64,000 nt of DNA from positions 62,001 to 126,000 of the forward strand of contig JAFSXX010000017.1 of assembly GCA_017443845.1 (NCBI GenBank). Direction: 5' to 3'. The position numbers and the translations under genes were made by a program. The stretch comes from Bacteroidales bacterium (GTDB lineage: Bacteria > Bacteroidota > Bacteroidia > Bacteroidales > UBA932). The notes below the pieces were generated by a model, which was not told where the DNA came from, did no database searches, and saw only the letters and a list, made by a program, of their open reading frames with translations. This document shows positions 12,395-60,253 of the stretch, in pieces (the stretch's first letter is position 1; each line of letters starts with the position of its first letter).

Positions 12395-12428
12395 CCCCAC
12401 GGCAACCGTCAAGCCCTCCATCCGTTCC

Positions 12429-41479: not shown

Positions 41480-41530
41480 ATGAAATGGACGGCATTTTTT
41501 CCTATCTTTACACACGCAACCCAATATGTA

Positions 41531-42175: not shown

Positions 42176-43233
42176 CAGACCTCTATTCAATAGCCGGCCG
42201 TTTCGCCCTCGAAGGCGAGGCCACCGACATCCGCCCTCTCGGCGAAGGCTTCATCAACGACACCTATCTCGTCTGCATAGACAACCGCACAGAGCCGGAT
42301 TATATCCTCCAGCGCAAAAATCACATAGTCTTCCCCGACGTGCCGGCGATGATGGACAACATCGAGCGGGTCACAAGGCATATCAAAGCCAAAGTGAAAG
42401 ATCCGCTCAGGGAGACCCTCACCGTAATCAAGGCCAAGGACGGCAAGCTGTACCATAAGGACGACGGCGGCAACTACTGGGCCGTATGCCTCTATATCAA
42501 GGGTTCCAAGAGCTACGACCGCGCCGATACCCCGGAAATGGCCTGGCAGGGAGGCGCCGGATTGGGCGAGTTCCACCGCCTGGTGAGCGACTTCGACCAG
42601 CCGCTGGCGGAGGTCATCAAGGGCTTCCACAATATCCGTTTCCGTTTCTTCCAGTGGGATGAGGCGCTCAGGCGCGATGCCGCCGGAAGGGTCGCATCAC
42701 TCAAGGAAGAGATCGGCTGGATAGAGTCGCGCCGCGAAATGATGCTCGAATTCTGGAAGAAGGTCGAGAACGGCGAAATCCCCACCCGCGTCACCCATAA
42801 CGACACCAAGATCAGCAATTTCCTCTTCGACGCCGGGGACGGCCACCTGCTTTGCGCGATCGACCTCGACACTATGATGTCCTCCACCCTCCTCAACGAC
42901 ATCGGCGACGCCCTGCGCTCATACACCAACACCGGAGCCGAGGACGACCCCGACCTCTCGAAAGTCGGGATGAGCCGCGAAATGTACGAGGCATACATCG
43001 GCGGATATCTCTCCAAGATGGAGCCGTATCTCACCGACATCGAGAAGAGATACCTGGGTTTCAGCGGAATCTACATCACCTACGAACAGGTGCTCCGCTT
43101 CCTGATGGACTACATCGACGGAGACACCTACTACAAGATCAAATATCCCGAGCACAACCTGGTCCGTACCCGCGCTCAGTATAAACTGCTCACGAGTATG
43201 GAAGAGGCCGGCCTGGGAGCGGGCTGTCAATAA
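42169..43233 (+). CDS. Phosphotransferase-family kinase, probably N-acetylhexosamine 1-kinase-like
   Basis: The 354-residue kinase has the aminoglycoside phosphotransferase fold. It shows GEGFINDTYLV (nucleotide loop), the catalytic loop RVTHNDTKISNFLFD and CAIDLDTMM with the metal-binding Asp. The arrangement resembles N-acetylhexosamine 1-kinase (NahK/LnpB type), which makes GlcNAc-1-P or GalNAc-1-P. This fits its place tail to tail with the NagB fusion (7-base overlap). Other sugar kinases of the fold cannot be excluded. It overlaps the CBM9-like gene and should be translated with it. Confidence 0.72.
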   Translation: MVTDLYSIAGRFALEGEATDIRPLGEGFINDTYLVCIDNRTEPDYILQRKNHIVFPDVPAMMDNIERVTRHIKAKVKDPLRETLTVIKAKDGKLYHKDDGGNYWAVCLYIKGSKSYDRADTPEMAWQGGAGLGEFHRLVSDFDQPLAEVIKGFHNIRFRFFQWDEALRRDAAGRVASLKEEIGWIESRREMMLEFWKKVENGEIPTRVTHNDTKISNFLFDAGDGHLLCAIDLDTMMSSTLLNDIGDALRSYTNTGAEDDPDLSKVGMSREMYEAYIGGYLSKMEPYLTDIEKRYLGFSGIYITYEQVLRFLMDYIDGDTYYKIKYPEHNLVRTRAQYKLLTSMEEAGLGAGCQ

Positions 43234-45161: not shown

Positions 45162-46351
45162 TTGCGAATTTTATAGCCGTAATATGCGTAATACATTATC
45201 AACAGATAGAAAGGCAGGCAGATCCAGTATGCGTTCTGGCTGCCCATCCAGTCCTTCATGAATCCGAAGAGGACCGGGATGAGGGCGCCGCCGCCGATGG
45301 AGGCCACCAGGAGCGAAGAGCCCTTCTTGGTAAACTTGCCCAGATCCACGATGGCCAGGGGCCAGATTGCGGGATACATCAGCGAGCAGGCGAAGCTGAG
45401 CAGGGCGACGAACCAGACCGAAACGGGGCCCGGGGTCAGTACGATGGCCAGCGACATTATGACGGCCAGCCAGGTGCAGATGCGCAGAGCCTTGACCTGC
45501 GAGATGTACTTGGGGATGAAGATGATGCCCAGGACATATCCCACCGCCATTCCGATTCCGGGCCAGATGGTGTAGCGCTCGGGGTTGGGAAGGCCGAGGT
45601 CCTTGGCGTAATCGAGCACAGTGAGGAGCGCGAGGTTCTCCACGCCCACATAGACGAAGAGCGCCAGGGCGCCGAGGATCAGGTGGGGGAACTGCCAGAG
45701 GCTCTTCTTGCCCGCCGCGTAGGGGCAATCCTCCTCGTTCTCCTCGCCCTGCGCCTTGATCTCCTCGAGGGGGGCGAAGATAGTAAGGATGCCGAGCACC
45801 ACCACAACTCCGATGATGATGAAGAGCGGAATGTCGAGGTCGTTCAGGCCCACCTGCTCGATAGGCTTGCGGGTGACCGCGGCGATGAAGACCGAAGGCA
45901 GCGAGAGGGCCAGCGAGTTGCAGATGCCCATTATGCTGATGCGCCGCGCGGCGCTGTCGATCGGGCCGAGGATGGTGACATAGGGGTTGATGGCCGCCTG
46001 AAGGATGGTATTGGCCGTTCCACTCACGAAGCAGGCGAACAGATAGAGGGCGAAACTCTCCATCCTCGCCGCGGGGATAAAGAGGGCGAAGGCCACCGCG
46101 AAGAGAAAGAAGGCGAGCGACATCGTCCGCTTGTATCCGATCTTGTTGATGATCGAAGATGCGGGGAAACTGAATACCAGGAAGGCTACGAAAGTCGCCG
46201 CCACCACGAGGTACGACTGCGCCGAAGTAAGGTGCAGGTTATTCTCCAGGAAGGGTACGAAGTAGCCGTTGATGCCCACCGCGAAGCCCACGGTGAAGAA
46301 CATCATTCCGATGAATGCCAGGGGCACTATGTATTTCTTGTTGCTGTCCAT
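45158..46351 (-). CDS. MFS sugar transporter, NagP/FucP-like
   Basis: The 397-residue inner-membrane transporter has twelve hydrophobic segments. FVSGTANTILQAAINPYVTILG is the conserved FHS-family (FucP/NagP) stretch, and INKIGYKRTMSLAFFLF the inter-helix 2-3 motif. Its position between the BadF-type kinase and the NagB fusion argues for uptake of N-acetylglucosamine or N-acetylmuramic acid from the periplasm. The specific sugar is inferred. It overlaps the downstream gene by 4 bases (ATGA). Confidence 0.87.
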   Translation of the reverse strand: MDSNKKYIVPLAFIGMMFFTVGFAVGINGYFVPFLENNLHLTSAQSYLVVAATFVAFLVFSFPASSIINKIGYKRTMSLAFFLFAVAFALFIPAARMESFALYLFACFVSGTANTILQAAINPYVTILGPIDSAARRISIMGICNSLALSLPSVFIAAVTRKPIEQVGLNDLDIPLFIIIGVVVVLGILTIFAPLEEIKAQGEENEEDCPYAAGKKSLWQFPHLILGALALFVYVGVENLALLTVLDYAKDLGLPNPERYTIWPGIGMAVGYVLGIIFIPKYISQVKALRICTWLAVIMSLAIVLTPGPVSVWFVALLSFACSLMYPAIWPLAIVDLGKFTKKGSSLLVASIGGGALIPVLFGFMKDWMGSQNAYWICLPFYLLIMYYAYYGYKIRK

Positions 46352-46357
46352 TCGGGT

Positions 46358-47212
46358 TTAGTTTTCGAGGTGATACTTGATGAGTCCCTCCATCGGGGCC
46401 TTGAGGATATTGCCCATCTTCATTCCGAACTCCTCCACCACGGGTTTCAGCAGCGGCTTGAAGTAGTATGCCACGCTGCCCACGGCATTGAACGTATATT
46501 TCGTATAGTCGGGATAATGGGTTACGATGAGCTTGAAGAACTGGCGGAAGGCGTCGGTCACCAGATCGGGGAAGTAGGGATCGAAGTCCAGGTTGTCGTG
46601 GATGAACTTGGCATACTGGGCGCAGAAGCGGTTGGGGAAGGGTTTGGTGTAGATGACGTCGAGAAGCTCGTCGTTGTTGCGGTCGAGTTCCCTGCCGACC
46701 AGTTCATAGACATTCGCCGGCATATTGCGGCGGATGTAGTCCGTGATCATGCGCTTGCCGAGGTTGCCGCCGCTGCCCTCGTCGCCGAGGATGAAGCCGC
46801 AGGAGTCCACGTTGAGCCCCTCGTTGCATCCGTCATAGAGGCACGAGTTGGCGCCTGTGCCGAGGATCGCCGCGAAGCCGGGCTCCCGCTGGAGCAGGGC
46901 GCGGCACGAAGCGAGGGTATCCATCGCGATGAAAACCGTCGTCACCTCGGTAAACACTTTGCGGAGGGTCTCCTCCATGAAGGGGTACTGGAGCGGAGTC
47001 ACGCCCGCACCGTAGAAGTAGATCTCAGCCACTTCTGCAACCGGGAATCCCGCCGGAAGATTGGCTTTGATATCCTCGACGATCTGGTCTCCCGTGATAT
47101 AATTGGGGTTGTAACCCTGGCTCTGGAAGGAGATGCGGCGATCAGTGCCCTTTTCGACACAAGCCCAATCGGTCTTCGACGCACCGCTGTCTGCTATGAG
47201 TATCATATTCAT
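46358..47212 (-). CDS. BadF/BadG-type N-acetylhexosamine kinase (NagK/MurK candidate)
   Basis: The 284-residue ASKHA-fold kinase starts MNMILIADSGASKTDWACVE, where DSGASKTDW is the phosphate-1 motif. IYFYGAGVTPLQ, AAILGTGANSCLYDG and CGFILGDEGSGGNLGKR are the signature of the N-acetylglucosamine kinase-like BadF family in Bacteroidetes. With MurQ in the same operon it is a good candidate for phosphorylating MurNAc, GlcNAc or both. The ATG at 47212 overlaps the preceding stop (ATGA). Confidence 0.88.
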   Translation of the reverse strand: MNMILIADSGASKTDWACVEKGTDRRISFQSQGYNPNYITGDQIVEDIKANLPAGFPVAEVAEIYFYGAGVTPLQYPFMEETLRKVFTEVTTVFIAMDTLASCRALLQREPGFAAILGTGANSCLYDGCNEGLNVDSCGFILGDEGSGGNLGKRMITDYIRRNMPANVYELVGRELDRNNDELLDVIYTKPFPNRFCAQYAKFIHDNLDFDPYFPDLVTDAFRQFFKLIVTHYPDYTKYTFNAVGSVAYYFKPLLKPVVEEFGMKMGNILKAPMEGLIKYHLEN

Positions 47213-48120
47213 TCTTTATTCTTATTGTCCCAGATTCCGTGGAGGTCGGGGAAGTCGCCAAGTCCGTAGCGGAAGAGGACGACTCCGACTGCCTCAGACT
47301 CATTCGCGAACTCCTGGCAGTCTGCGAGAATCTGCTCGGGGGTCATGGGGATGGGAGTGTCGTCATCGGTATCGCCGGCCTCGGGACGGTCGCGGTATGT
47401 GGTGGTTCCTGCCCAAACGACCGCGGGTTTGCCCTTCTCGGCGAAATGATTCGCCACGCGGACAGCCCAACCGGCATCGTTGTTCTTGTATCCGCCGCTG
47501 TAACGGTAGATCATAGGCATCAGGATGTCGATATACTGTCCCATCTGGGCGGGATCCTGGCCGTAGTAGTGCTCGCTGTCCGGTTCGGGCATAAGGGCTG
47601 CGGAGAGGACGATCTTGGGATTCACGGCCTTCACAGCCTCACTTATCTGGCGGCAGAACTCGGTGACGCAGCCTGTGGCGGTTATCTCTTCCGAGGGATT
47701 GTGCTTGTGGGCGGTGCCTCCGAAGCGGATATAGTCCAGATGGATGCCGTCAACGCCCCACTTGACATACTGCACGGCGCGGGCGATGACCTCGTCGAAA
47801 TATTCCTGCTTGTAGCGGTTGTTCTCGTCATCGACGGGATTGACCCACTTGCCGTCCTGGTAGAAGGCCTGGAACCAGATGTGGACCTTGCAGCCCTTCT
47901 TCTGGGCATTCTTGACGAAGGCGAGGGTCGAGTCCACGCCGTGGGCGGTGAAGGCTTTCTCGTGGAGAATGATGTTCTTGATATCCTTGGAGACCATCTC
48001 GTCGATGTTGACCTCGGTCATATACTTGGACCAGAGCCAGAAGGCATTGGTATTCGGTTTTTCTTCCTTGCAGGAAGCAAGCATCAGGAGCGCAGTGAGC
48101 GCGATAAGAAGTCTTTTCAT
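47209..48120 (-). CDS. GHL10-like glycoside hydrolase lipoprotein
   Basis: The 303-residue lipoprotein (MKRLLIALTALLMLASCKEE, lipobox LASC) has a TIM-barrel pattern. It shows KNIILHEKAF, KVHIWFQAFYQDGKW, the GHL10 hallmark GVDGIHLDYIRFGG (about 123-136) and LMPMIYRYSGGY. GHL10 includes E. coli DigH (YddW), which cuts peptidoglycan glycan strands stripped of peptides. The whole length aligns with the C-terminal half of the next gene product upstream, so the two are paralogues. It should face the periplasm or cell surface. Confidence 0.82.
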   Translation of the reverse strand: MKRLLIALTALLMLASCKEEKPNTNAFWLWSKYMTEVNIDEMVSKDIKNIILHEKAFTAHGVDSTLAFVKNAQKKGCKVHIWFQAFYQDGKWVNPVDDENNRYKQEYFDEVIARAVQYVKWGVDGIHLDYIRFGGTAHKHNPSEEITATGCVTEFCRQISEAVKAVNPKIVLSAALMPEPDSEHYYGQDPAQMGQYIDILMPMIYRYSGGYKNNDAGWAVRVANHFAEKGKPAVVWAGTTTYRDRPEAGDTDDDTPIPMTPEQILADCQEFANESEAVGVVLFRYGLGDFPDLHGIWDNKNKE

Positions 48121-48125
48121 AGTAT

Positions 48126-50222
48126 CTATTTTGCAAACATTCCGGTAAAAATGGGCAGTTCACCGATTCCGTAACGGAAAAGGGCGAGGCCGTGAGCGCG
48201 GGATTTGGTGATATTGAAGCTGTCGCGGTAGAGTTCGGCGGCCGAGAGTCCCTGGGTATTGCTGTTGTAGGTCGAGACGCCGTGCCACGACTGGGTGCCG
48301 GGCTTGCAGCGGTCGGCGAACCAGTTCGCAACCGCGACATTCCTCGTAGAGGAGTAATTATAGGACGAAATATAGGCCATCGGCATCAGCACGTCTATAT
48401 ACTGCGTCATCTGGCCGGGATCCTGGCCGTAATAGGACTGGGCGTCGGTTTCGCCCATCAGGGCGGCTGAGAGGATCACCTTTGGATTCTTGGTCTTGAG
48501 GGCGGCGTTGGCCTGGCGGCAGAACTCCGTGATGGCTCCCGTACCGGTAATGCCGTCCTCGGGGAAGGAGTGCTTGGCCGCGGTGCCTCCGAAACGGATA
48601 TAGTCGAAGTGGATGCCGTCGATGGGAGCCCTGTCCATATAGTCGAGGCAGCGTCCAATCACCTCATCGAACAGCGCCTGATTGTAACGCGCGGGAGTCG
48701 AGCCGCTGCGGTCGATAACCGGCAGGCGCCACTGCTGGGCGTCGTTCCACCAGAAGCACTGGAGCCAGATATGGAGCTTCATTCCGAGGCTGTGCGCCTC
48801 GTCGAGCAGGCTCTGGACCTTGGCTGTGCCATAATTCTTGAAGGCCCATTCGTGGAGCACTATGTTGCCTATTCCGTGCTTGCAAAGATCCTCAAGATCG
48901 ACCGAATTGGTCGAGGACTGGTTGACCCAGATGGCGATGGTATTGCCCTCTTCGATGCCGTAGTTGAGTTCGCCGCGGCTCGGGGTGAGTACCGTGAACC
49001 ATTTTCCGGTACCCTCGGGAAGGCGGCTCCAGCTGGTCTTGTCGGTCGCGACGCGGGAGTCGGCGCGGACATCGCTCTTCTTGAAGGTGTCGAGGGTCTT
49101 GCCCGTCGATGTAACGAGGGTGAACGAGTCGTTGGACTTCACATCCACATCTGCCACCAGATGGCCTCCGGCGGGAATCGTCACCTTGCCGCTGCTGAAC
49201 ACCTCCTTGCCTGACGCCTTCAGCGCGAGACCGCTCGTGGAGATATTCTCCACAGTGGTATTGGCAATCTCCACCCAGCCCGCAAGGGAGACCTCGTTGA
49301 TCACCAGGCCCGTCGGGTCGTCGGTTACGCTGGCGTTGACTGCGTTTTTGGTCGCGGTAGTGGAGACTTTCCACTCGCCGGTCAGATCCGGCAGGCGGCT
49401 CCAACTGCCCGATGCCGAAGGATCGGCGAGGTCGCCGGCAGTGAAGCGGTTGATCTCCTTTCCGGAGTTGTCCAGGAGCCTTACCACTTTGAGTTTTGAC
49501 CTGTCGCCTTCGCACTCCACGGCGATCCTCTCACCGGAAGAGAGGATCGTGCCGTAAGCGAAAGTATGGAGCACGGTTCCGTCAGCCGCGCAAAGGGTGG
49601 CATATTCCAGCCAGAGCTCGTTGGTTCCCACATTGGCAACCTCAACCCAGCCCTCCGCAGGGCAGACCTCGTTGATGATGATATTGCTGAGGATATGGGG
49701 AACTATCTTGTAATTGGCCTCTCCCGGAGTGGGTGTCGAGGTTATGGTCCATTCGCCGGTGATATCCGGTATGCGGGCATAACTCTGCCCGTCCTCGGGC
49801 TTCATCGTGGAATTGTAGTCGTACTCCAGCGAGAAGCTGTTGAGCATCGACCCCTCTCCGTCGGCTATTCCGACCTCCTCGAGGGTGTTGCGCAGCATCG
49901 GGGAGGAAAACTCCACTTTGTCGGTGCTGATGACGAAGCGGCCCTTCGCCTCCGCGGTCCCCTCGGAGAGGACTGCCACCTCAGACTCTATGGCACCGCC
50001 TCCGGTGAGGATAACCTTGAGTCCCTTGAGGTTGATGGTGCGGTCGGAGGTATTGTAAATCTCGATCCACCCCTCCTTGCCGATGCTCTTCGAGGGAGAG
50101 ACCTCATTGATGATAAGGCCCTGCATATTGTCGTACTCCGGCTGGGGATCCGGCTTGGGGACGCAGGATACGGCCAGCGAGACGGCGGCTGCAAGGAATA
50201 TGTATCTAAACCCTTTCTTCAT
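48126..50222 (-). CDS. Lipoprotein with three lamin-tail-like domains and a GHL10-like hydrolase domain
   Basis: The 698-residue lipoprotein (lipobox LAVSC in MKKGFRYIFLAAAVSLAVSC) has three N-terminal modules: GLIINEVSPSKSIGKEGWIE, IIINEVCPAEGWVEVANVG and GLVINEVSLAGWVEIANTT, at about residues 35, 185 and 305. These match the lamin-tail domain start (INEV....WIE..N). A GHL10-like barrel follows (about 425-698: NIVLHEWAFKNYG, KLHIWLQCFWW, PIDGIHFDYIRFGG). Lamin-tail domains are thought to hold enzymes on surfaces or bind ligands. The barrel is a diverged paralogue of the following gene. Confidence 0.8.
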   Translation of the reverse strand: MKKGFRYIFLAAAVSLAVSCVPKPDPQPEYDNMQGLIINEVSPSKSIGKEGWIEIYNTSDRTINLKGLKVILTGGGAIESEVAVLSEGTAEAKGRFVISTDKVEFSSPMLRNTLEEVGIADGEGSMLNSFSLEYDYNSTMKPEDGQSYARIPDITGEWTITSTPTPGEANYKIVPHILSNIIINEVCPAEGWVEVANVGTNELWLEYATLCAADGTVLHTFAYGTILSSGERIAVECEGDRSKLKVVRLLDNSGKEINRFTAGDLADPSASGSWSRLPDLTGEWKVSTTATKNAVNASVTDDPTGLVINEVSLAGWVEIANTTVENISTSGLALKASGKEVFSSGKVTIPAGGHLVADVDVKSNDSFTLVTSTGKTLDTFKKSDVRADSRVATDKTSWSRLPEGTGKWFTVLTPSRGELNYGIEEGNTIAIWVNQSSTNSVDLEDLCKHGIGNIVLHEWAFKNYGTAKVQSLLDEAHSLGMKLHIWLQCFWWNDAQQWRLPVIDRSGSTPARYNQALFDEVIGRCLDYMDRAPIDGIHFDYIRFGGTAAKHSFPEDGITGTGAITEFCRQANAALKTKNPKVILSAALMGETDAQSYYGQDPGQMTQYIDVLMPMAYISSYNYSSTRNVAVANWFADRCKPGTQSWHGVSTYNSNTQGLSAAELYRDSFNITKSRAHGLALFRYGIGELPIFTGMFAK

Positions 50223-50228
50223 TTGATC

Positions 50229-51230
50229 CTAGAAATCCAGTTCTTCGTATAAATGCATGTTTTCGTAGCCTTTGAAAGCGACGGTTCCGAGTTTATTGCC
50301 ATTGTTGGACGCATCGGCCATCACCCACTCGCCGTCGATGAAGAGCTGCGAGATGACGTGGCCGATAATGCCGCTCGAGTAGTAGCACTGAGCGTGGAAA
50401 TAACGGCCGGGGATGCCGCTCAGGCGGGCCATTGCCAGCACGGCGTGCGAGAGGTCGCAGCAGTTGCCGCCCTTGTCCCTGATGGTGCCGACGGCGCCCC
50501 TGCGGGTATTGTTATAGTCGAGCCACTCCCACTCGTCGCGGGCATAGCAGAAAATGGCGTCGGCCTTCTCGCGGACCGTAGAATTCTCGGTCACGCCGGC
50601 CTTTGCCCAGGCTGCGTCGCGGGTCGCCTTGACTTCGGGGGCATTGATGTCGCAATTCGCGGTGGAGTGGGTATAGGAGGATTCCCAGGTGTTTATCTTC
50701 TCGGGGAACTTCCCGTTCTCGGCATAATAGGCGAATGCGCGGCACATCATCACCAGCAGACCGGTGGAAGAGAGATTGGGCTCATATCCGGGAATCTTCA
50801 TGTTCAGCTTGATCTCCTTGAGCTCCGTCATATTCCTGTACTGCTCCCTCAACAGCTGCTCGAAGGCGCTGAAGGGGACCTCTACGGGGACGAAGGGGAC
50901 ATCGGTAGTAAGGCTGAACGTAGCCGAAGGATAGACTACATCCTCTTCCATCCATTTGTCCGGATTGTCGAGAATCTTGACGGCGAGCGCAAGACCCGCA
51001 CGGACATATTCACGGGTGAAAATATTGACTCCCTCCCATTTGATGACGCTGGGAAGTTTGTTGTCGGCCTCCCAGGTGGCATAGGCGTCGGCAAGGGCCA
51101 GTACGAGCTGTCCGTTATAAGTTGTTTTCCAGTCTACAGGATCGGGTTCCGGTTCCGGCTTGGGATCCGGCTTCTCTGCGCAGCCGCAAACGAGTACGGC
51201 GAGGCACAACAGTGCAAATAACCGTTTCAT
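50229..51230 (-). CDS. Transglutaminase-like lipoprotein with a PMBR-like segment
   Basis: The 333-residue lipoprotein (MKRLFALLCLAVLVCGCAEK, then a PDPKPEPEPDP linker) has at residues about 40-95 VLALADAYATWEADNKLPSV and EYVRAGLALAVKIL, resembling the pseudomurein-binding repeat pattern. The C-terminal half is a papain-like transglutaminase core: DKGGNCCDLSHAVLAMARLSGIPGRY with the catalytic Cys, IIGHVISQLFIDGEW with His and MADAS with Asp. Such domains act as peptidases or crosslinkers, and those of methanogen viruses cut pseudomurein. The real substrate is unknown. It lies between the repeat lipoprotein and the lamin-tail protein. Confidence 0.82.
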   Translation of the reverse strand: MKRLFALLCLAVLVCGCAEKPDPKPEPEPDPVDWKTTYNGQLVLALADAYATWEADNKLPSVIKWEGVNIFTREYVRAGLALAVKILDNPDKWMEEDVVYPSATFSLTTDVPFVPVEVPFSAFEQLLREQYRNMTELKEIKLNMKIPGYEPNLSSTGLLVMMCRAFAYYAENGKFPEKINTWESSYTHSTANCDINAPEVKATRDAAWAKAGVTENSTVREKADAIFCYARDEWEWLDYNNTRRGAVGTIRDKGGNCCDLSHAVLAMARLSGIPGRYFHAQCYYSSGIIGHVISQLFIDGEWVMADASNNGNKLGTVAFKGYENMHLYEELDF

Positions 51231-51254
51231 ATCAGATAATTATGTAATTGGCAA

Positions 51255-51280
51255 CCGTGGGAGCGGTCAGGCTCCCACGG
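51255..51280 (-). other. Intercistronic hairpin in the wall-sugar operon
   Basis: A perfect 10-bp stem (CCGTGGGAGC with GCTCCCACGG, 6-base loop) lies 11 bases after the stop of the repeat lipoprotein gene and before the transglutaminase gene. On the minus strand it lacks a downstream T-run, so it is more likely an RNA-stabilising or processing hairpin than a terminator. Confidence 0.7.
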
Positions 51281-51290
51281 CCGAAAAAAA

Positions 51291-54200
51291 TTAATAGAGG
51301 TCGAATGCTACCTGAACATCCTTGAGAGCATCATAGACATTATCTTCTACGTTGTTGTCAAGGAGATACTTGTAGATACGGGCCATCACGAGGAGCTCAC
51401 GCATAGGGCTGATGAGACCTTCGTAACCGGAGAGGATAAGGGTTCCCGAAGAGGTACCGAACTCCTGGAAGTTGCCGATTCCGTTCAGAGGGCTGTTGCC
51501 GGCATTCTTGATGAGGCCGCGGACAACATGCCAGGAACCGCACTTGAGGATGAACTCGATGCCCACCTTATCTATCTTCTGTCCATTGTAGGTAACGGTC
51601 TGGTCGTACTCATACCAGGGATTTGCATTCCACTTGTTGTTGGAGGAGTATGCAGGGACAACGGAGTTGAATCCTACGCCGTTAGCAAGGGTATATGCCT
51701 TGTTGCGGTCGGTCATGTCGGTGAGGAATGCCTCGCCTTCCTTGGTGCACATATTCATCAGACCACGGACAGCGATCTCCCAGCACTGGTTGGAGGTGTA
51801 CTCCTTGTCACCGACCTTAGCGCTCCAGTAGGGCTGCCACTTGGCGTCATACTGGTTGCCTGCATTGACATAACCGGGCTCAGCTACGTAGATGGGAAGG
51901 AAGTGTACGTTTGTCCAGGAGGAAGAAGGATTGGTGGTGTAATTGTGGGTTCCGTCAGCATCCACGGTACCGACTGTCTTCTCCCAGACGTCGAGGCAGG
52001 TCACGAATGACTTAGCCCACTCCTTGAGAGTAGCTTCCTGCTTGTAGAGCTCGAAGTCGAACTTGGCATCCTTGAGGGCGTCATAGACGTTGGTAGTGAT
52101 CTTATTGTCGAGCAGGTACTTGTAGATACGGGCGAGGACGAGGAACTCACGCATAGGAGCGATGAGGCCTTCGTAGCCGGTAAGGTTCAGGGTACCGGAG
52201 GAGGTACCGAACTCCTGGAAGTTGCCGACATTGTTCAGAGGGCTGTTGCCGGCGGTCTTGATAAAGCTGCGGACCACGTGCCAGGTACCGACCTTAAGCA
52301 TGAAGTCGATGCCTACCTCGTTGATTTTCTCACCATTGTAGGTAACGGTCTTGTCGTACTCATACCAAGGATTGGCACCCCACTTGTTGTTAGCGGAATA
52401 TGCCGGCATGGGAGCATCCATTCCGACACCGTTGCCGGGGGTGAATGCCTTATTGCGGTCGTCCATAGTTTCGAGGAATGCTTCGCCTTCCTTGGTGCAC
52501 ATATTGATGAGGGCGCGGAATGCGATCTCCCAGCACTGGTTTGCGGTGTATTCGGTGTCACCTACCTTCGCGGTCCAGAAAGGAGCCCACTTGGAGTCGT
52601 ACTGGTTGCCTGCGGTGGTGTAGCCGGCGTTGGGATTGTCGATAGGAATAAAGTGGACGTTCTGCCATGCATTTCCGTTAGGGGTGCAGTGGGTTCCGTC
52701 AGCATCCACGAAGCCGACAGTCTTCTCCCACACGTCGAGGCAGGTTACGAATGCCTTCGCGAAGTCCTCGATAGTACCGGTGACGGGCTTGACATAAGGA
52801 TTCTGAGCGATGGAAACCACCTTCTCATAGGTACCGGCAGCAAGGGTAACGGTTGCGCTGCGGGATTCGGTAACCGTATTGTCGTCAAGGGTGACGCTGA
52901 TGGTCTGCTCACCTGCACCGCCGGAGGTCTTGTCGAGGTGGATCCAGGCCTCGGAAGGAGTCGCGGTCCAGTTCTCGGAAGCAGTGAACTTGATCTGCTG
53001 CGCGGGAGCCGCGGAAGCGTCAAAGTTCATGCTGGTCTCGGTGATGATGATAGGAAGTTCCTGCTTGTAGAGCTCGAAGTCGAACTTCACATCCTTGAGG
53101 GCGTCATAGACATCCTTGTTGATGTTATTGTCGAGCAGGTACTTGTAGAGACGGGCGAGGATGAGGAACTCACGCATAGGGGAGATGAGGCCTTCGTATC
53201 CCTCGAGGTTGAGGGTACCCGAACCGGTGCCGAACTCCTGGAAGTTGCCGATCATTCCCAGAGGGGTGTTGTTGGCGTTAGCGATGAAGCTCCTGGTAAC
53301 ATGCCACGAGGTGCACTTCATAAGGAACTCGAGACCGACCTCGTTAATCTTCTGGCCGTTGTAGGTCACGAGGTTGCCCTGGTTGACATACTCATACCAA
53401 GGATAGCTTCCCCATGCGCAGGCCTCGGAAGGACGGCTGATGGGAGCGGAAGCGAGCGACTTGCCGTTGCCGTAAGGGATCTCACCGTTACGGGAGTGGT
53501 TGTTGAGGAACTCTTCACCGGTGGTGGTGCAGAGGTTCATCAGACCGCGGATAGCGATCTCCCAGCACTGTGCTGCGGTATAGGTGGTACCGTCAACTTC
53601 AACGGTAACATAGGGCTGGTACTTGGGATCATACTGGAGACCCTGCTTCGACCAGGATGTGCTCGGGTTGTCGTTGGGGATAGGAATGAAGTGGACGCGC
53701 TCCAGAGGGTTGTTGTTGTCCTCGCAAGCGGAACCGTCGGCGCTCAGACGATCGCAGACGTTGGCCTCCCAGACATCCAGATACTTGACGAACTCCTGTG
53801 CGAATGCCTTGAGGGATGCACCGCCGCCGAGGTAATCGGTCTCGACCTTTGCGGGAAGCTTACCGTCGGAAGCATAGGCTGCGAGAGCCCTTGCGATGGT
53901 CACGATCGCACGGTTGGTAGAGAATGCGAGAGCTTCGCTGCCACGATAGACGATGGTCTGGTTGGGAATCTGATTCTTGTCCGCGGATACGGAAAGAATC
54001 GATTTCGCGATGGTCACGAGGTCCTCAGCGACTCCCTTTCCGTCAGCGGGGCCGTTGGTAACTGCGATCTCATCCTTGTCGTAGCTGTCACGCTCGGGAT
54101 TCGAAGCAGCCTTGTAATCGAAGGGCGAGACCTTGTCGGTCTTGCCGTCAGCGATGTTGGCAAGCGCACCAGCCTCGAGGCAGAGGAACTGCGCGGGATT

Positions 54201-54404
54201 GAAGGTCTTGCCGGCAACGGTGAACGAGGTAGGGATAGCCCTTTCCTCTTCCCAGGAAGCATAGAAATCCGAGACGGCCGAAACCACCTGGGAGAGTTCT
54301 ACTGCATTCTCGTCCGGTGTCGGAACGGGATCCTTGGGTTCACAAGAATTCAGAGTAAGCGCGCAAACGATCAGCGCGGCAAACAGGTAGAATACTTTTT
54401 TCAT
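51291..54404 (-). CDS. Giant repeat lipoprotein with PMBR-like segments and a BACON domain
   Basis: The 1037-residue lipoprotein has lipobox LTLNSC in its signal. Residues 35-90 (LSQVVSAVSDFYASWEEERA, FTVAGKTFNPAQFLCLEAGA) resemble the pseudomurein-binding repeat. Three homologous blocks of about 248 residues follow (198-449, 543-790, 791-1037). Each has QYD.KW.P...KVGD.EYT.NQCWEIA.RGL, WYEY..TVTYNG.KI.EVG and GNFQEFGT.SGTL. A BACON domain (455-537, WTATPSEAWIHLDKTSGGAG) separates blocks 1 and 2. Blocks 2 and 3 are the most alike. There is no catalytic motif, so it is probably a surface binding or scaffold protein. Confidence 0.85.
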   Translation of the reverse strand: MKKVFYLFAALIVCALTLNSCEPKDPVPTPDENAVELSQVVSAVSDFYASWEEERAIPTSFTVAGKTFNPAQFLCLEAGALANIADGKTDKVSPFDYKAASNPERDSYDKDEIAVTNGPADGKGVAEDLVTIAKSILSVSADKNQIPNQTIVYRGSEALAFSTNRAIVTIARALAAYASDGKLPAKVETDYLGGGASLKAFAQEFVKYLDVWEANVCDRLSADGSACEDNNNPLERVHFIPIPNDNPSTSWSKQGLQYDPKYQPYVTVEVDGTTYTAAQCWEIAIRGLMNLCTTTGEEFLNNHSRNGEIPYGNGKSLASAPISRPSEACAWGSYPWYEYVNQGNLVTYNGQKINEVGLEFLMKCTSWHVTRSFIANANNTPLGMIGNFQEFGTGSGTLNLEGYEGLISPMREFLILARLYKYLLDNNINKDVYDALKDVKFDFELYKQELPIIITETSMNFDASAAPAQQIKFTASENWTATPSEAWIHLDKTSGGAGEQTISVTLDDNTVTESRSATVTLAAGTYEKVVSIAQNPYVKPVTGTIEDFAKAFVTCLDVWEKTVGFVDADGTHCTPNGNAWQNVHFIPIDNPNAGYTTAGNQYDSKWAPFWTAKVGDTEYTANQCWEIAFRALINMCTKEGEAFLETMDDRNKAFTPGNGVGMDAPMPAYSANNKWGANPWYEYDKTVTYNGEKINEVGIDFMLKVGTWHVVRSFIKTAGNSPLNNVGNFQEFGTSSGTLNLTGYEGLIAPMREFLVLARIYKYLLDNKITTNVYDALKDAKFDFELYKQEATLKEWAKSFVTCLDVWEKTVGTVDADGTHNYTTNPSSSWTNVHFLPIYVAEPGYVNAGNQYDAKWQPYWSAKVGDKEYTSNQCWEIAVRGLMNMCTKEGEAFLTDMTDRNKAYTLANGVGFNSVVPAYSSNNKWNANPWYEYDQTVTYNGQKIDKVGIEFILKCGSWHVVRGLIKNAGNSPLNGIGNFQEFGTSSGTLILSGYEGLISPMRELLVMARIYKYLLDNNVEDNVYDALKDVQVAFDLY

Positions 54405-54429
54405 AATGATTTGTTATTGGTGATGGTTG

Positions 54430-55281
54430 TTAGTTGGTTTCTTTTGGAAGTTCCTTGATGACGCCGCTCTCGAGAAGATACTGCTCCGCCTTCTTGAGGC
54501 CGCCGGTCTTCTTGATGATGTCTTCGCAGAATTCATAGCTCAGGCCGGGATTGCGCTCCACCATGGTGCGGGTGAGGCGGTCCACGACTTTATTGTTGAT
54601 CAGGTTCGCCATGACCATACGGTTGCCCTCGACGCGGCCGAGGCGGCACATGATGGTGGTGCTTATCATATCGCAGAGGAGCTTCTGCGACGTTCCAGAT
54701 TTCATACGCGTGCTGCCGGTGATGAACTCGGGGCCCGTGATTATCTCGATGGGATAATCAACATAATCCGAGATGGGCGAGCCGGGATTGTTGCAGATCG
54801 AGCCGCAGGGGATTCCGTTCTCCTTGCAGGCCTTCATCGCAGCGAGCACATAAGGGGTGCAGCCGCTGGCCGATATGCCGACCACGATATCCTTGGGAGT
54901 GATGTGATGCTTGTCGCGGAGGGTTCTCCATCCCTCTTCGACATCATCTTCCGCCTCCTCGAGGTCGAGGACCAGATTCTCGACTCCACCGGCCAGGACG
55001 GCCTGCCAGATTTCGGGATCCACTCCGTAGGTATTGGGAACTTCGAGGATATCGAGGACCGCGAGCTTTCCTCCGGTGCCGCAGCCAAGGTAGAACATCC
55101 TTCCGCCGCCGCGGATGGTGGCCTCTATGGCAGAGACAAGTTTTTCGATATCGGGAAGTACGGCTTCGATGGCCAGGGGAACTTTCTTGTCCTCATTGTT
55201 GATGTCGCGAAGCAACTCGGCCACCGATTTTTTCTCCAGGTGGTCGTAAAGGGATGGTTGTTCTGTTAATCTAAGTGACAT
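54430..55281 (-). CDS. murQ: N-acetylmuramic acid 6-phosphate etherase
   Basis: MurQ removes the lactyl ether from MurNAc-6-P to give GlcNAc-6-P and D-lactate. The 283-residue SIS-fold protein shows LTEQPSLYDHLEKKSVAELL, INNEDKKVP, and GRMFYLGCGTGGKLAVLDIL with E-VPNT, where the first catalytic Glu is kept. The second Glu is in LDLEEAEDD, and TGSTRMKSGTSQKL is the sugar-phosphate loop. The usual TSGR reads TGGK. Its presence inside a SusCD operon is the strongest evidence that MurNAc is a substrate of the locus. Confidence 0.93.
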   Translation of the reverse strand: MSLRLTEQPSLYDHLEKKSVAELLRDINNEDKKVPLAIEAVLPDIEKLVSAIEATIRGGGRMFYLGCGTGGKLAVLDILEVPNTYGVDPEIWQAVLAGGVENLVLDLEEAEDDVEEGWRTLRDKHHITPKDIVVGISASGCTPYVLAAMKACKENGIPCGSICNNPGSPISDYVDYPIEIITGPEFITGSTRMKSGTSQKLLCDMISTTIMCRLGRVEGNRMVMANLINNKVVDRLTRTMVERNPGLSYEFCEDIIKKTGGLKKAEQYLLESGVIKELPKETN

Positions 55282-55286
55282 TTTGG

Positions 55287-57119
55287 TTAGAAACTTTTAT
55301 ATTTTGTCTGCCCGATCTGCTTTCCGTCGCGGAATGCGGCGGCGGTGACCCGCTGCTGGCGGTTGATGACGAACGGCATTTCGTAAAGCTGCGAGGAGGC
55401 CGTAGGCTCGCTGCCGTCGAGGGTATAGCGTATCTCGGCGCCGGGAGCGTCAACAGAAATGGTCACTACCATATCGTAGGGCGTATCTTTATGGAATTCT
55501 ATGAAAGGATTGTGGAAGGCGTCGCAATAGCCCACTCCGAGGTTGTCGAGCCTGCCCAGGTGATGTTCGAGCCTGCGGGTGAAACCCTCCCAGTCCTTGG
55601 GACAGGTGGTCCAGCCGGCCTCGGCTATGGCACACATACGCGGCCAGGCCATATATTCGACCCTCGCCGGGGTAGGCATATATTCGGTCCAGACGCAGCC
55701 CTCGACTCCTATGATATACCTGGCCTCCTCCGGGGTGAGGACCGCCGGAACGGGTTCGTACTCATACATCGTGCGGAGCGTGGTCGGGCCGTCCATAGCC
55801 AGCGGTTCGCTGTCGGGATCGGCCTGCCAGTAATCCAGGTAATACTTGGGATAGGGAGCCATAACAACCTCGTGGTGCTGCTGGGCGGCCTTGATGCCTC
55901 CCTCCTCCCCGAGCCAGCTCATCACCTTGGCGTTGGGTGCGAGGCCTCCCTGGAGGATTTCGTCCCAGCCGATGATTTCGTGGCCCTTGGAGTTGATGTA
56001 CTTCTCCATCCTTGTTATGAACCAGCTCTGGAGTTCGAATTCATCCTTGAGCCCGAGCTGTTTTATGAGTTTCTGGCAGTGCTCGCACTGCTTCCAGCTC
56101 GCTTTGGGGCACTCGTCGCCGCCGATGTGGACAAGCTTCGAGGGGAAGAGTTCGAATACCTCGTCCATCACGTCCTCGAGGAATTTGAAGGTCTCCTCCT
56201 TGGGGCAGAAAACCTGCTTGAAGACGCCCCACTTGGTGGCTGTCTCATAGTGGTCCTCAAGTCCGCAGGAGAGTTCAGGATAGCACGAGATGGCAGCGAG
56301 GGCGTGACCCGGCATCTCTATCTCGGGAATGATGGTCACGTAGCGCTCCGCGGCATACTTTACAAGTTCGCGGACCTCGTCCTGCGAGTAGTATCCCCCG
56401 TGGGGTGTGCCGTCATAGACGCCGCTCTTGAGCGAGCCTATGACAGTCTCCTTGCGCCACTGCCCCTTCTCGGTCAGGAGAGGGTATTTCTTGATCTCCA
56501 GGCGCCATCCCTGGTCCTCGGTCAGGTGCCAGTGGAAGCGGTTGACCTTGTGGAGGGCCATTATGTCGATATAGCGCTTGAGGAAATCCATATCGAAGAA
56601 GTGGAGACAGCAGTCCAGATGCATTCCGCGGTAAGGGAATCGGGGAGCGTCCTCGATCTGGCAGCAGGGCACCCTCCAGTCGGTCCCGAAGGCCTTGCGG
56701 TCGGCGAATATCTCGACGGGAAGGAGCTGCAGAAGGGTCTGGAGGCCGTAGAATGCACCGGCTCCGTCGCCGTAGTCGATCACTATCCTCTCCGGCTCCA
56801 CGCGGAGTTCGTAGCTCTCCGAAGGCAGCCCGGCATCGAGGAAGTAGATGCCTTTCCCGGGCGATGAGAGGTCGGCCTCGCGGATCTCCAGTTCGAAGCC
56901 TGCTGCGGTGCGGAGCCTCCTGTTGAGGAATCCGGCGACGCGCACGATCTCATCATTGCCCGCTTCGACGAAGATCGGAGTGGACTTTTTAATGGTGAAA
57001 TCACCCTCATCCACCTGTAGGTGCGCGGGACGGGGAATGACGCTTATCTCCTGCCCGGCAGGTGCCGTGCAGGACACTGCAAGCGCGATTGCGGCAATTA
57101 TGGAAACTATCTTTCTCAT
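55287..57119 (-). CDS. GH20 beta-N-acetylhexosaminidase (lipoprotein)
   Basis: The 610-residue exo-hexosaminidase starts MRKIVSIIAAIALAVSCTAP, with lipobox AVSC. It has a GH20b N-domain (about 30-140), then the barrel with RGMHLDCCLHFFDMDFLKRY, WHLTEDQGWRLEIK, IPEIEMPGHALAA and the catalytic Asp-Glu pair in HIGGDECPKASW. A C-terminal beta domain (about 540-600, APGAEIRYTLDGSEPT) resembles the chitobiase C-terminal module. It releases terminal GlcNAc/GalNAc. Its start overlaps the second GH20 gene's stop by 4 bases. Confidence 0.94.
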   Translation of the reverse strand: MRKIVSIIAAIALAVSCTAPAGQEISVIPRPAHLQVDEGDFTIKKSTPIFVEAGNDEIVRVAGFLNRRLRTAAGFELEIREADLSSPGKGIYFLDAGLPSESYELRVEPERIVIDYGDGAGAFYGLQTLLQLLPVEIFADRKAFGTDWRVPCCQIEDAPRFPYRGMHLDCCLHFFDMDFLKRYIDIMALHKVNRFHWHLTEDQGWRLEIKKYPLLTEKGQWRKETVIGSLKSGVYDGTPHGGYYSQDEVRELVKYAAERYVTIIPEIEMPGHALAAISCYPELSCGLEDHYETATKWGVFKQVFCPKEETFKFLEDVMDEVFELFPSKLVHIGGDECPKASWKQCEHCQKLIKQLGLKDEFELQSWFITRMEKYINSKGHEIIGWDEILQGGLAPNAKVMSWLGEEGGIKAAQQHHEVVMAPYPKYYLDYWQADPDSEPLAMDGPTTLRTMYEYEPVPAVLTPEEARYIIGVEGCVWTEYMPTPARVEYMAWPRMCAIAEAGWTTCPKDWEGFTRRLEHHLGRLDNLGVGYCDAFHNPFIEFHKDTPYDMVVTISVDAPGAEIRYTLDGSEPTASSQLYEMPFVINRQQRVTAAAFRDGKQIGQTKYKSF

Positions 57120-58906
57120 TTTCCAAACTCCCTTGTCATCAGCACGCCCAAGGGCTCTCCGTCGGCCGTGAAGCCGCGGGCCTTGATGACATCGCCTTTA
57201 TCGACACGCAGCAAAGAAGGTGCCACGGGGGACGATGCATCGGGCTCGGTGCCGTCTGTGGTATAATGGATTACAGCTCCTGGAACATCGATTTCGAGCT
57301 CTACGTCGCGGGGGTAATCCTCCTCCAGGTTCATATTCACTATGACGTTGTAGAAGGCTTTGCTGTAGTTGATTCCCCTTGCGTCAAGCCGTTCGAATTC
57401 CTTGGGTATGCGGGTGCAGAAATCGGCGAAATCGCGGTTTTCGTCCCTGCTCCAGCAGAATTCGGCGATGGCCGCGGCACGCGGGTATGCCTGATGCTCC
57501 AACTGCTTGGTATCGGGTATGAACTCACCCCAGACGCAGGCCTGCCAGCCGAGGATAAGGTCGCTCTTGGCATTGTAGAGCGAATCGCCTATCTGGGCTA
57601 CGGGATCGTAATTGTAAGCCTTGCGCAGGGTGATGAAGAGATGGTGGTTCTTGGGCAGATCCTCTATCTCGTTCTGGTGATAGTCGTAATAGCACCAGCG
57701 GTTGGGGCAGAGGATAACCTTCATATCGCGCTCCATAGCCCTCATCGCGGGCTTGTGGCCGCGGTAGGACATGACCACGGTGCTCTCGACCGCGCTGCCG
57801 TCCAGGATTTCATCCCATCCGATGACGGTGCGGCCCCTCTCGCGGAGGTAGCTGTCGAAATGCTTCACGAAGTAGTACTGCAGGTCATCGACCCCGGAGA
57901 GGCCGAGTTCCCTGGCCAGGTTGCGGCAGTATGCGCTCGCGCGCCACGCATCCTTGGGGCACTCGTCGCCGCCGATGTGGATGTACTTCGAAGGGAAGAG
58001 ATCCAGCACCTCGTCGAATACCTTCTCGAGGAACCCGAACGTCCTGGGCGAGGGGCAGAACACATCCTTCTTGATGCCCCAGGTGGTAGCCACCTTCTTG
58101 GGCTCATCGGGGGTGCAGGAGAGTTCGGGATATGCGGCTATTGCGGCGCTGGCGTGGCCGGGAAGCTCTATCTCGGGAACCACCGTGATGAAGCGGTGGC
58201 GGGCGTACTCCACTATGTCGCGGATTTCGTCCTGGGTGTAGAAGCCGCCGTGGCGGATTCCGTCACCCTTCTCGTCATAACCGGCGGTCTCGTCCCTCCA
58301 GGCTCCGACCTCGGTCAGGCGGGGGAATGCCTTGATCTCGATGCGCCATCCCTGGTCCTCGGTAAGATGCCAGTGGAAGCGGTTCTGCTTGTGCATCGCC
58401 ATCATATCGAGGAACTCCTTGACGGTCTCCACGGGATAGAAATAGCGGCAGCAGTCGAGCTGCATTCCGCGCCATGCGACCCTGGGGGCATCTTCGATGT
58501 GGCAGCACTGCGCCTTCCAGGCGACGCCATCCACTTTCTTGTCGGAGTACGCCGATCCGGGCAGGAGTTGCCGGAAGGTCTGCAGGCCGTAGAAGGCACC
58601 CGCTGCATCGGAGGCAGAGACCTTGACGCGGCGGCGGCCCACTGCGAGCCTGTAGCCCTCTGCGGGCTGGCTCTCATCCTTCTCGAGGATGATGGCGCGG
58701 CCGAAGAGGTGGCGCTTCGCAGCAAGGGCGTACCCGGTGGGCACGGCCATCTCCTGGCGGAAATCGGCTGCGACTTCGTCGAACTCCGGGCAATGCGATA
58801 CTACCGCGGTGCGGGGTCCCAAAGTGAAGGAACCGCCCTTTTCCGTTACCGAAGAGGGTTGCGGAATGATCGAAATCGAGAGAAGTATGGCGAGGAGGAA
58901 CTTCAT
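57116..58906 (-). CDS. GH20 beta-N-acetylhexosaminidase, second copy
   Basis: The 596-residue paralogue of its neighbour starts MKFLLAILLSISIIPQPSSV, a short secretion signal without a lipobox, so it is probably periplasmic. Conserved parts are RGMQLDCCRYFYPVETVKEF, WHLTEDQGWRIEIK, VPEIELPGHASAA and the catalytic pair in HIGGDECPKDAW. A chitobiase-type C-terminal module (VPGAVIHYTTDGTEPDAS) is present. Two GH20 enzymes with different anchoring suggest cleavage at two sites, surface and periplasm, or of two linkages. Confidence 0.93.
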   Translation of the reverse strand: MKFLLAILLSISIIPQPSSVTEKGGSFTLGPRTAVVSHCPEFDEVAADFRQEMAVPTGYALAAKRHLFGRAIILEKDESQPAEGYRLAVGRRRVKVSASDAAGAFYGLQTFRQLLPGSAYSDKKVDGVAWKAQCCHIEDAPRVAWRGMQLDCCRYFYPVETVKEFLDMMAMHKQNRFHWHLTEDQGWRIEIKAFPRLTEVGAWRDETAGYDEKGDGIRHGGFYTQDEIRDIVEYARHRFITVVPEIELPGHASAAIAAYPELSCTPDEPKKVATTWGIKKDVFCPSPRTFGFLEKVFDEVLDLFPSKYIHIGGDECPKDAWRASAYCRNLARELGLSGVDDLQYYFVKHFDSYLRERGRTVIGWDEILDGSAVESTVVMSYRGHKPAMRAMERDMKVILCPNRWCYYDYHQNEIEDLPKNHHLFITLRKAYNYDPVAQIGDSLYNAKSDLILGWQACVWGEFIPDTKQLEHQAYPRAAAIAEFCWSRDENRDFADFCTRIPKEFERLDARGINYSKAFYNVIVNMNLEEDYPRDVELEIDVPGAVIHYTTDGTEPDASSPVAPSLLRVDKGDVIKARGFTADGEPLGVLMTREFGK

Positions 58907-60253
58907 CTAGAATACTTTTTGGATGGTTTCCTCCACGACTGCCGAGTAGGCGGCAGGCATTTCGGGAGAGAGCGGATAGGGCGCCTTTATATATACGTGC
59001 ATCTGCTCTATCTCATATTCGTATCCCTTGCGGTATTCGTAGGCGTGGGCCGAGGGCAGATAGGAATTCTGTCCGTTGGTGTAGCCTGCGAAGAATATCG
59101 TCTTGTCTGGATGGTTCGCACGGGCACTCGTCTGGTATTCGCAGAAAGGTTCTCCCTGCGAGAAGAAGAAAATCACGCCGTCGAGATTGAGGGCCTCCAT
59201 ATTGAAGTCCAGCTTGTTGGGAACCGGGCCTTTGTCGAAGCGCGAGAGTATCTCGGCCTCCCAGCCGCGGACGTCCTCGGCGAAGCGGGGGAATTCGGTC
59301 TTGTAGGCAACCGCGATGGAATCGGCGTGGGCGCGGACAGCAGCCGGAGTCACCTCGTCGATGAGGTAAGGAAGCTGCGCCAGGCCGGTGTCGAACTTAA
59401 GCACGCCCTTGGGCTTGACCTTGGTGAATTCGAGCGCCTTGAGGCAGTCGGCCAGTTCGGTTCCGATCTCCTCGGCGTGTCCCACGAGCAGGCAGCCGCC
59501 CTTGGGGTCCATATTGCCGGCGGCGCCGGTCAGCTGGAACACCTCGCAACCCCACGCGTCCTCAACCAGGCCGCGGGCTACGCCCGAATAATCGGATGAG
59601 AGCAGCAGGCTCTTGGGACCCATGCATACGGGATGGCAGGCGATGTTGTAGAAGGCGCAGAGAGGCTTCTTGCCGGAAATAATCTTCACGGCGTAAAGGT
59701 CGCTGTCAACAGGACCGGTCTCAGCCTCGCAGCGGTGGTAGTTGATGGGAGCCGAACCCTTGGCCACCTCCATCCTGAAGGGCTTGAATGCCTTGTCGTC
59801 GGTGATGGTCTTTACGGCATTGTCGATGATGGCCTCCACCGTGCGGATCTTGTACGCGCGGTTGGGGCCGCCGGGCTCAACCGAGGCTCCTCCCAGGCGC
59901 GGCGCGCTGTGGGTGTGGATGCAGTGCAGCAGAATGCGTTCCCTGTCGAGGCCGCTGCGGACGCTGATCGAATCGCGGATCTCATCGGCCAGGGCCGGGG
60001 AAATCTCCATCAGGTCGTTGGAGATGATGCAGACCTTCTGTTTTCCGTCGGTAACGACGAGGCAGTTGGTCTTGAGGGGGATATGGATGCCGTCAGAGAG
60101 TCCCTGGCGCGCCGCGAATCCGGCCAGCACCAGATGCTCATCCTCCAGCGCCGAGATTCCGGCGCTGGAGAAGTTGCATTTGAGTTTCTCTCCGCCGCAG
60201 GAGCACAGGCACAGGGCCAGTGCCACGCAGGCTATGATATAGAGCCTTTTCAT
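58907..60253 (-). CDS. Neutral ceramidase-type amidase lipoprotein
   Basis: The 448-residue lipoprotein (lipobox LCSC in MKRLYIIACVALALCLCSCG) belongs to the neutral/alkaline non-lysosomal ceramidase N-terminal domain family. It has ILLHCIHTHSAPRLGG with the zinc histidines, FYNIACHPVCMG with a further His and FQLTGAAGNMDPKGG. Known members hydrolyse the amide bond of ceramide with a zinc centre. The family is widespread in bacterial polysaccharide loci without proven substrates. Within this operon an amide such as an N-acyl or lactyl-peptide bond is a reasonable guess only. It abuts the second GH20 gene. Confidence 0.8.
   Translation of the reverse strand: MKRLYIIACVALALCLCSCGGEKLKCNFSSAGISALEDEHLVLAGFAARQGLSDGIHIPLKTNCLVVTDGKQKVCIISNDLMEISPALADEIRDSISVRSGLDRERILLHCIHTHSAPRLGGASVEPGGPNRAYKIRTVEAIIDNAVKTITDDKAFKPFRMEVAKGSAPINYHRCEAETGPVDSDLYAVKIISGKKPLCAFYNIACHPVCMGPKSLLLSSDYSGVARGLVEDAWGCEVFQLTGAAGNMDPKGGCLLVGHAEEIGTELADCLKALEFTKVKPKGVLKFDTGLAQLPYLIDEVTPAAVRAHADSIAVAYKTEFPRFAEDVRGWEAEILSRFDKGPVPNKLDFNMEALNLDGVIFFFSQGEPFCEYQTSARANHPDKTIFFAGYTNGQNSYLPSAHAYEYRKGYEYEIEQMHVYIKAPYPLSPEMPAAYSAVVEETIQKVF

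Follow-up and report, generated by a model that had tools for sequence, protein, structure and literature searches.

Whose cell wall would a bacterium address with proteins laid out like the pseudomurein-cleaving enzymes of methanogen viruses? The question is raised by a locus in a 64,000-nucleotide stretch of the genome of a Bacteroidales bacterium (lineage UBA932; assembly GCA_017443845.1, contig JAFSXX010000017.1, positions 62,001 to 126,000), the whole of which is referred to here as the window. A first-pass annotation of its letters had proposed that two neighbouring lipoprotein genes share segments resembling pseudomurein-binding repeats (PMBRs), joined in one of them to a transglutaminase domain, and that their host may bind archaeal or bacterial walls. 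Our analysis gives a probability of about 0.62 to the reading that the locus is a SusCD-type operon for the utilization of murein (bacterial peptidoglycan), whose two lipoproteins are a PeiP-like enzyme and a giant protein that binds the wall. The target of the pair would most likely be bacterial cell walls used as food; an archaeal target is possible, albeit less likely.

Two lipoproteins with a common N-terminal domain

Both open reading frames (ORFs), of 333 and 1037 residues, are present on the minus strand, with the following parts:

50229..51230, minus: transglutaminase-fold (TG) lipoprotein, predicted at the surface, 333 residues; lipobox Cys17, three PMBR-like units, C-terminal catalytic domain
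50676..51140, minus: TG residues 31-185, PMBR-like three-unit domain (PMBR profile on orthologs, hhalign, Foldseek to PeiP 8z4f)
50232..50639, minus: TG residues 198-333, transglutaminase-like catalytic domain (Cys257 at 50460-50462, His291 at 50358-50360, Asp306 at 50313-50315)
51291..54404, minus: giant lipoprotein, predicted at the surface, 1037 residues; invariant lipobox Cys21, then triplet, block 1, BACON, blocks 2 and 3
53820..54311, minus: giant residues 32-195, PMBR-like triplet homologous to the TG N-domain (profiles, model, PeiR Z 9.3)
53067..53807, minus: block 1, residues 200-446, apparent divergent PMBR-like triplet with insertions (block profile comparison with shuffles, model)
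52803..53051, minus: BACON domain, residues 452-534 (PF13004, 3e-10; in 27/27 orthologs)
52044..52766, minus: block 2, residues 547-787 (block comparison)
51294..52022, minus: block 3, residues 795-1037 (block comparison)

The N-terminal pattern that had been noticed in both proteins lies far above chance. The giant protein, used as a query, retrieves the TG lipoprotein of its own genome at E 0.0018, a profile of four TG orthologs matches giant residues 1-189 at 2.4e-12, and the profile-profile comparison of the two N-domains gives P 4e-18, a score that none of 100 column shuffles reaches. The shared domain is composed of three helix-plus-"LPxxV" units, which in the TG protein occupy approximately residues 38-88, 117-150 and 155-182. 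Downstream of these units, the TG protein matches Transglut_core (PF01841) at 2.8e-12 in a Pfam search of the window proteins, and its Cys257/His291/Asp306 triad is kept in all 34 aligned orthologs, which places it in the transglutaminase-like superfamily as had been proposed. Peptidase_C71 (PF12386) matches none of these 34 orthologs at E<=0.1, although PeiP itself matches the same model at 6.3e-96. The protein is thus laid out like a Pei enzyme, yet by hidden Markov model its catalytic domain is Transglut_core rather than Peptidase_C71.

The repeats of about 248 residues described for the giant protein correspond to three blocks of about 241-248 residues, 54-72% identical and all containing a 'VTVEVDGTTYTAAQCWEIAIRGL'-like segment; the BACON domain between the first and second of them had been missed. 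A block profile built from 101 blocks out of 27 giant proteins is co-linear with the TG protein's entire three-unit domain over 144 columns (P 2e-6; 0/100 shuffles). Judged through the TG N-domain, each block looks like a further, diverged PMBR-like triplet, and the order triplet, block, BACON, block, block would then amount to four triplets and one BACON domain. Compared directly with the repeats of PeiP and PeiW, the block and giant N-domain profiles score inside the range of the shuffles (P about 0.4), and the Pfam search of the giant protein yields neither a PMBR nor a transglutaminase match; since a direct sequence match is absent, the link of the giant protein and its blocks to PMBRs goes via the TG N-domain and structure. 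The length of the giant orthologs varies between 766 and 1733 residues. At two related loci (L052, 8383-9522; L053, 7974-9146), a lipoprotein of 379-390 residues, with one block-like domain by eye, precedes the TG gene at the place where the giant gene stands elsewhere.

Sequence evidence for pseudomurein-binding repeats

The PMBR model (PF09373) has no match at E<=10 in either window protein, and both thus stay below its curated cut-off of 24.9 bits; nor does the genome of the window contain any match at E 0.001. From the window proteins alone, the PMBR idea would look refuted, but the orthologs change that. The model matches 22 of the 34 TG orthologs at E<=0.1 (best 1.7e-6), at the middle one of the three repeats (unit 2), with text such as 'GSLPNYVTF'. 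When the 31 genomes that carry the locus were searched in six frames, the top matches came from the TG frame, 4 of the 31 exceeding the curated cut-off, with a highest score of 27.4 bits over model positions 4-33. The background does not exceed 15.5 bits in 20 genomes of the class, and in 395 sampled genomes of the phylum it comprises three matches at 21.6-23.4 bits, none above the cut-off. Two of these three loci were read and correspond to a helicase-like protein and ribosomal protein S6, and the matches were judged to be chance. A lone match of about 22 bits can therefore be chance, whereas many matches at one homologous site of one family are not. In addition, the N-terminal region of the TG protein aligns with the PMBRs of PeiP, PeiW and PhiF3 (hhalign, P 1.2e-4), with a score that 100 column shuffles all failed to attain. 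Weak Pfam matches to EMC6, GAUT_1, HBD, DUF5758 and others were below cut-off and were dismissed.

Predicted structures

An AlphaFold2 model of the window TG protein (34-row alignment) has a mean predicted local distance difference test score (pLDDT) of 79.8, and a model of giant residues 1-446 one of 79.7. Among 350,542 PDB chains searched with Foldseek, the best match of the TG model is PeiP (8z4f_A, E 1.4e-8, 304 alignment columns), in an alignment that covers the repeats and the catalytic domain without a change of order, with a root-mean-square deviation of 16.6 Å indicating that the domains are not placed alike overall. VIA aligns the same chain at Z 9.7 over 194 residues and, for the catalytic domain, finds transglutaminases and other members of the superfamily up to Z 10.9. 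The four best Foldseek matches of the giant model are, in order, PeiP (E 3.4e-3), PeiR, PeiR and PeiP. By VIA, its N-domain aligns with PeiR at Z 9.3 (1.9 Å over 70 residues) and with PeiP at Z 8.9 (2.4 Å over 71), the next unrelated chain reaching only Z 3.5, and PeiP is again the top match of the giant model in a library of viral models. On the predicted models, the fold is therefore that of the PMBRs in the solved PeiP and PeiR, by both Foldseek and VIA. The proposed PMBR resemblance fails for the window proteins at the level of direct profile matches, and stands through ortholog matches and structural likeness to solved PMBR proteins. The proposed architecture stands as well: PMBR-like units joined to a transglutaminase-fold domain of the cysteine peptidase type, and beside it a giant repeat protein that contains such units too.

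An operon for wall sugars

The pair lies within a run of minus-strand genes whose other members are:

43227..45161, minus: glucosamine-6-phosphate deaminase-like protein (NF002557, 8.7e-234)
45158..46351, minus: MFS transporter, probably for released amino sugars (PF07690, 4e-21)
46358..47212, minus: MurK/NagK-family kinase, putatively for N-acetylmuramic acid (MurNAc) or N-acetylglucosamine (GlcNAc) (sequence comparison)
47209..48120, minus: 303-residue lipoprotein, DUF4015 / GH18-like putative glycosidase (Pfam; no PDB relative by sequence)
48126..50222, minus: 698-residue lipoprotein with three lamin-tail (LTD) stretches and a DUF4015 putative glycosidase domain (Pfam)
54430..55281, minus: MurQ, N-acetylmuramic acid 6-phosphate etherase (NF003915, 3.7e-84, over cut-off)
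55287..57119, minus: GH20 hexosaminidase
57116..58906, minus: GH20 hexosaminidase
58907..60253, minus: neutral ceramidase-like protein, weak family match (PF04734, 1.3e-9)
60258..62234, minus: SusD-like lipoprotein (PF07980, 5.9e-45)
62241..64000, minus: SusC-like TonB-dependent transporter, extending beyond the window end (named by sequence and by its place beside SusD)

The Pfam search of the SusC-like fragment in the window gave no match; in the genome, the complete gene is an ORF of 1032 residues. The order of the operon is SusC, SusD, ceramidase-like protein, GH20, GH20, MurQ, giant, TG, LTD-DUF4015, DUF4015, kinase, MFS and glucosamine-6-phosphate deaminase. The operon is conserved over 36 loci, with the giant gene in 32/36, MurQ in 25/36 (24 of the 26 loci that extend to the second GH20 gene), the kinase in 32/36 and the MFS gene in 31/36. 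These 36 TG loci of the genome collection, carried by 31 genomes, come almost all from Bacteroidales metagenome-assembled genomes (MAGs) of the rumen, reticulum and omasum, with horse faeces and a single Candidatus Cryptobacteroides genome among the few other sources. The TG family is patchy: of the 399 genomes and 26 genera of the bacterial family, 24 and 2, respectively, have a match at E<=1e-10, and in an order-wide sample of 393 genomes only the genome of the window has one at this threshold. A search of IMG/VR returned no viral relative of the TG protein, and PeiP was matched by only five phage records.

With adjacent SusC and SusD genes next to predicted surface enzymes, the locus has the make-up of a SusCD utilization locus, and with MurQ and an amino-sugar kinase of putative substrate beside an uptake system, that of a MurNAc/GlcNAc utilization operon. 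The wall-sugar operon and the Bacteroidales host of the first-pass annotation are supported. The kinase is close to the MurNAc kinases MurK and K1058 of Tannerella forsythia (1.5e-53) and to two uncharacterised homologs, and its residues at the positions that give the lactyl group room in MurK are different, though not bulky; they appear compatible with the use of MurNAc and not diagnostic of it.

Which wall would be the target

The strongest pointer to the ligand is MurQ, because its substrate contains MurNAc, a sugar that pseudomurein does not have (PMC4592898). In the murein pathway favoured here, the 1037-residue protein, with its four triplets and a BACON spacer, would hold sacculus fragments at the cell surface, and the PMBR-like triplet of the 333-residue protein would dock the PeiP-like enzyme on the wall, where its Cys-His-Asp domain would cut the stem or the cross-link at a peptide or isopeptide bond. 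The DUF4015 lipoproteins and GH20 enzymes would trim the glycan, uptake would fall to SusCD and the MFS permease, and the MurK-like kinase, MurQ and the deaminase would convert MurNAc and GlcNAc into fructose-6-phosphate and lactate. The homologies, the order of the domains, the intact triad and the conservation of the operon are computational results, from which the surface location, the ligand, the bond that is cut and the allotment of roles are inferred. A precedent for the sugar branch is the murTKQ system of T. forsythia, which imports and uses MurNAc (PMC5790795). For the binding branch, two motifs suffice for the pseudomurein-binding (PMB) domain of MTH719 to bind lysozyme-treated bacteria (spheroplasts), whereas pseudomurein requires three (PMC3124540). 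Several results weigh against this pathway. For this PMB domain, no binding was seen to intact bacteria or to purified L. lactis murein particles (PMC3124540), and the domain's binding pattern therefore makes a murein ligand plausible yet not certain. Neither window protein reaches the PMBR model, and in the TG protein of the window 'PNYVTF' is no longer preserved in unit 2; the models have a mean pLDDT of about 80 and were built on 27-34 sequences; the positions of MurNAc specificity in the kinase differ, with Ser-Pro-Leu of MurK replaced by Asp-Ser-Cys and T94 by Met; and, as the TG orthologs have no Peptidase_C71 match, the bond that the enzyme cuts cannot be read across from the Pei enzymes.

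Pseudomurein methanogens inhabit the rumen and gut, and the pair could instead bind pseudomurein and cleave its isopeptide bonds, allowing the host to attach to rumen methanogens or to feed on them. The nearest solved structures are all pseudomurein endoisopeptidases, three units per domain are the minimum for pseudomurein binding (PMC3124540), and the orthologs come almost all from rumen and other gut MAGs; but the operon is centred on MurNAc, no gene for talosaminuronic acid was recognised, and the missing C71 match speaks against this target as well, so that the proposal seems quite improbable. The wall-binding Bacteroidales that had been suggested is thus right in fold and architecture, and its archaeal target is not the leading one, as the chemistry of the operon is that of MurNAc. 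A different GlcNAc polymer, such as chitin or host or fungal glycans, is also unlikely as the ligand, with the TG protein as a general surface peptidase and MurQ serving self-recycling: the presumed PMB ligand is GlcNAc (PMC3124540), and the GH20 enzymes and BACON domain would suit many GlcNAc glycans, but in most loci that reach it MurQ sits inside the operon, between the GH20 and the surface-protein genes.

The remaining explanations concern the proteins themselves. The catalytic domain aligns to animal transglutaminases (Z 10.9) as well as to the PeiW domain (Z 9.0), as would be expected of a true transglutaminase that cross-links proteins and anchors the giant to its own or a partner's surface. 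The known prokaryotic proteins with this domain beside PMBRs are, however, wall peptidases (Pei) or adhesins (PMC11532034), and the sugar-catabolic neighbours favour a hydrolase, which makes cross-linking very improbable. That the PMBR resemblance reflects a helix-strand repeat of a common kind, with no relation in descent or function, is scarcely credible: the repeat is short and chance matches of 21-23 bits do occur among the 395 genomes, but the PF09373 matches recur at one homologous site of one family, the structure search sets the Pei proteins apart from all other folds and the shuffles never attain the score.

Replacement of the surface cassette

A comparison of the window with one relative (L027) indicates that the surface genes are exchanged. 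The genes on both flanks are 90-96% identical at the protein level, whereas the TG protein is 43% identical (33% in the N-domain, 56% in the catalytic domain) and the giant N-domain 45%. At the DNA level, an identity of 85% extends across 41495-48121 and 54464-58533 and is broken between them, and the LTD-DUF4015 gene stands after the pair in the window but before the giant gene in the relative. From this break in identity and the different gene order, the segment at 48.1-54.5 kb is recognised as a replaced cassette relative to L027, at 48122-54463 (about 6.3 kb), which carries the LTD-DUF4015, TG and giant genes. In the 87 pairs of loci with a core identity of 90-95%, TG identity spans 37-86%. 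The exchange could reflect selection for different walls, or evasion of something that reads the surface. It is a long shot that the giant PMBR-type arrays and PeiP-like enzymes of rumen Bacteroidales recognise methanogen walls besides murein, the surface pair being swapped between strains so as to change the recognised wall.

Relation to known systems

The lipoproteins of the SusE/F type are surface glycan binders of SusCD operons, and the giant protein resembles them as a SusCD-operon lipoprotein with repeated binding domains; their modules are beta-sandwiches, whereas those of the giant would be PMBR-like. The closest known relatives of the TG layout are PeiP and PeiW of phages psiM2 and psiM100 (PDB 8z4f, 8jx4), in which N-terminal PMBRs are likewise followed by a transglutaminase-fold Cys-His-Asp peptidase. 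These are phage lysins with four PMBRs and a C71 domain, whereas the TG protein is a lipoprotein of a bacterial MurNAc operon, with three diverged units and a general Transglut_core domain. PeiR, from a provirus of Methanobrevibacter ruminantium (PDB 8z4h), has the PMBR fold of the giant N-domain, but carries two PMBRs and a C39 peptidase. The Group III adhesin-like proteins of methanogens, compared by description, also combine a PMBR with a transglutaminase-type domain, but they are archaeal and transmembrane and contain archaeal Big domains (PMC11532034). The murTKQ locus of T. forsythia likewise has MurQ, a MurK-family kinase and an importer; PMBRs, a transglutaminase and a giant binding protein are not described in the parts of those reports consulted (PMC5790795, PMC10465942).

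PMBRs in bacteria are not new in themselves, with seven bacterial proteins known in 2010 (PMC2989375) and PMBRs on record for a few bacteria (PMC2989375, PMC3124540), nor is their combination with a transglutaminase domain, as in the methanogen adhesins. In the literature searched, no description was found of a PMBR-like/TG pair in a Bacteroidales MurNAc operon, and as far as our searches reach, this pair, the array of triplets in the giant protein and the exchange of the cassette are new. A design of methanogens and their viruses would thereby be placed in a wall-eating operon of bacteria, providing a concrete set of proteins for how Bacteroidales may capture and open peptidoglycan. It also bears on what PMBR domains recognise, either pseudomurein or a GlcNAc feature common to murein, and should any of these proteins bind the walls of methanogens, the rumen would have supplied natural tools for binding methanogens.

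Further observations on the locus

The two DUF4015 lipoproteins (47209-48120 and 48126-50222) are conserved beside the pair and are candidates for new wall glycosidases. In some relatives (L020, 13973-19099), the operon is followed by genes for an AAT-family hydrolase, a transporter that is GltS-like by eye and a fused M20/C1-type peptidase, which would fit the use of peptide stems. A neutral ceramidase-like protein (58907-60253) lies inside the wall-sugar operon, and a protein of the AbiEii-type nucleotidyltransferase toxin family is encoded near the operon end, at 39172-40191. Elsewhere in the window, a tandem array at 12428-12774 comprises 6.7 copies of a 52-base unit with 94% matches.

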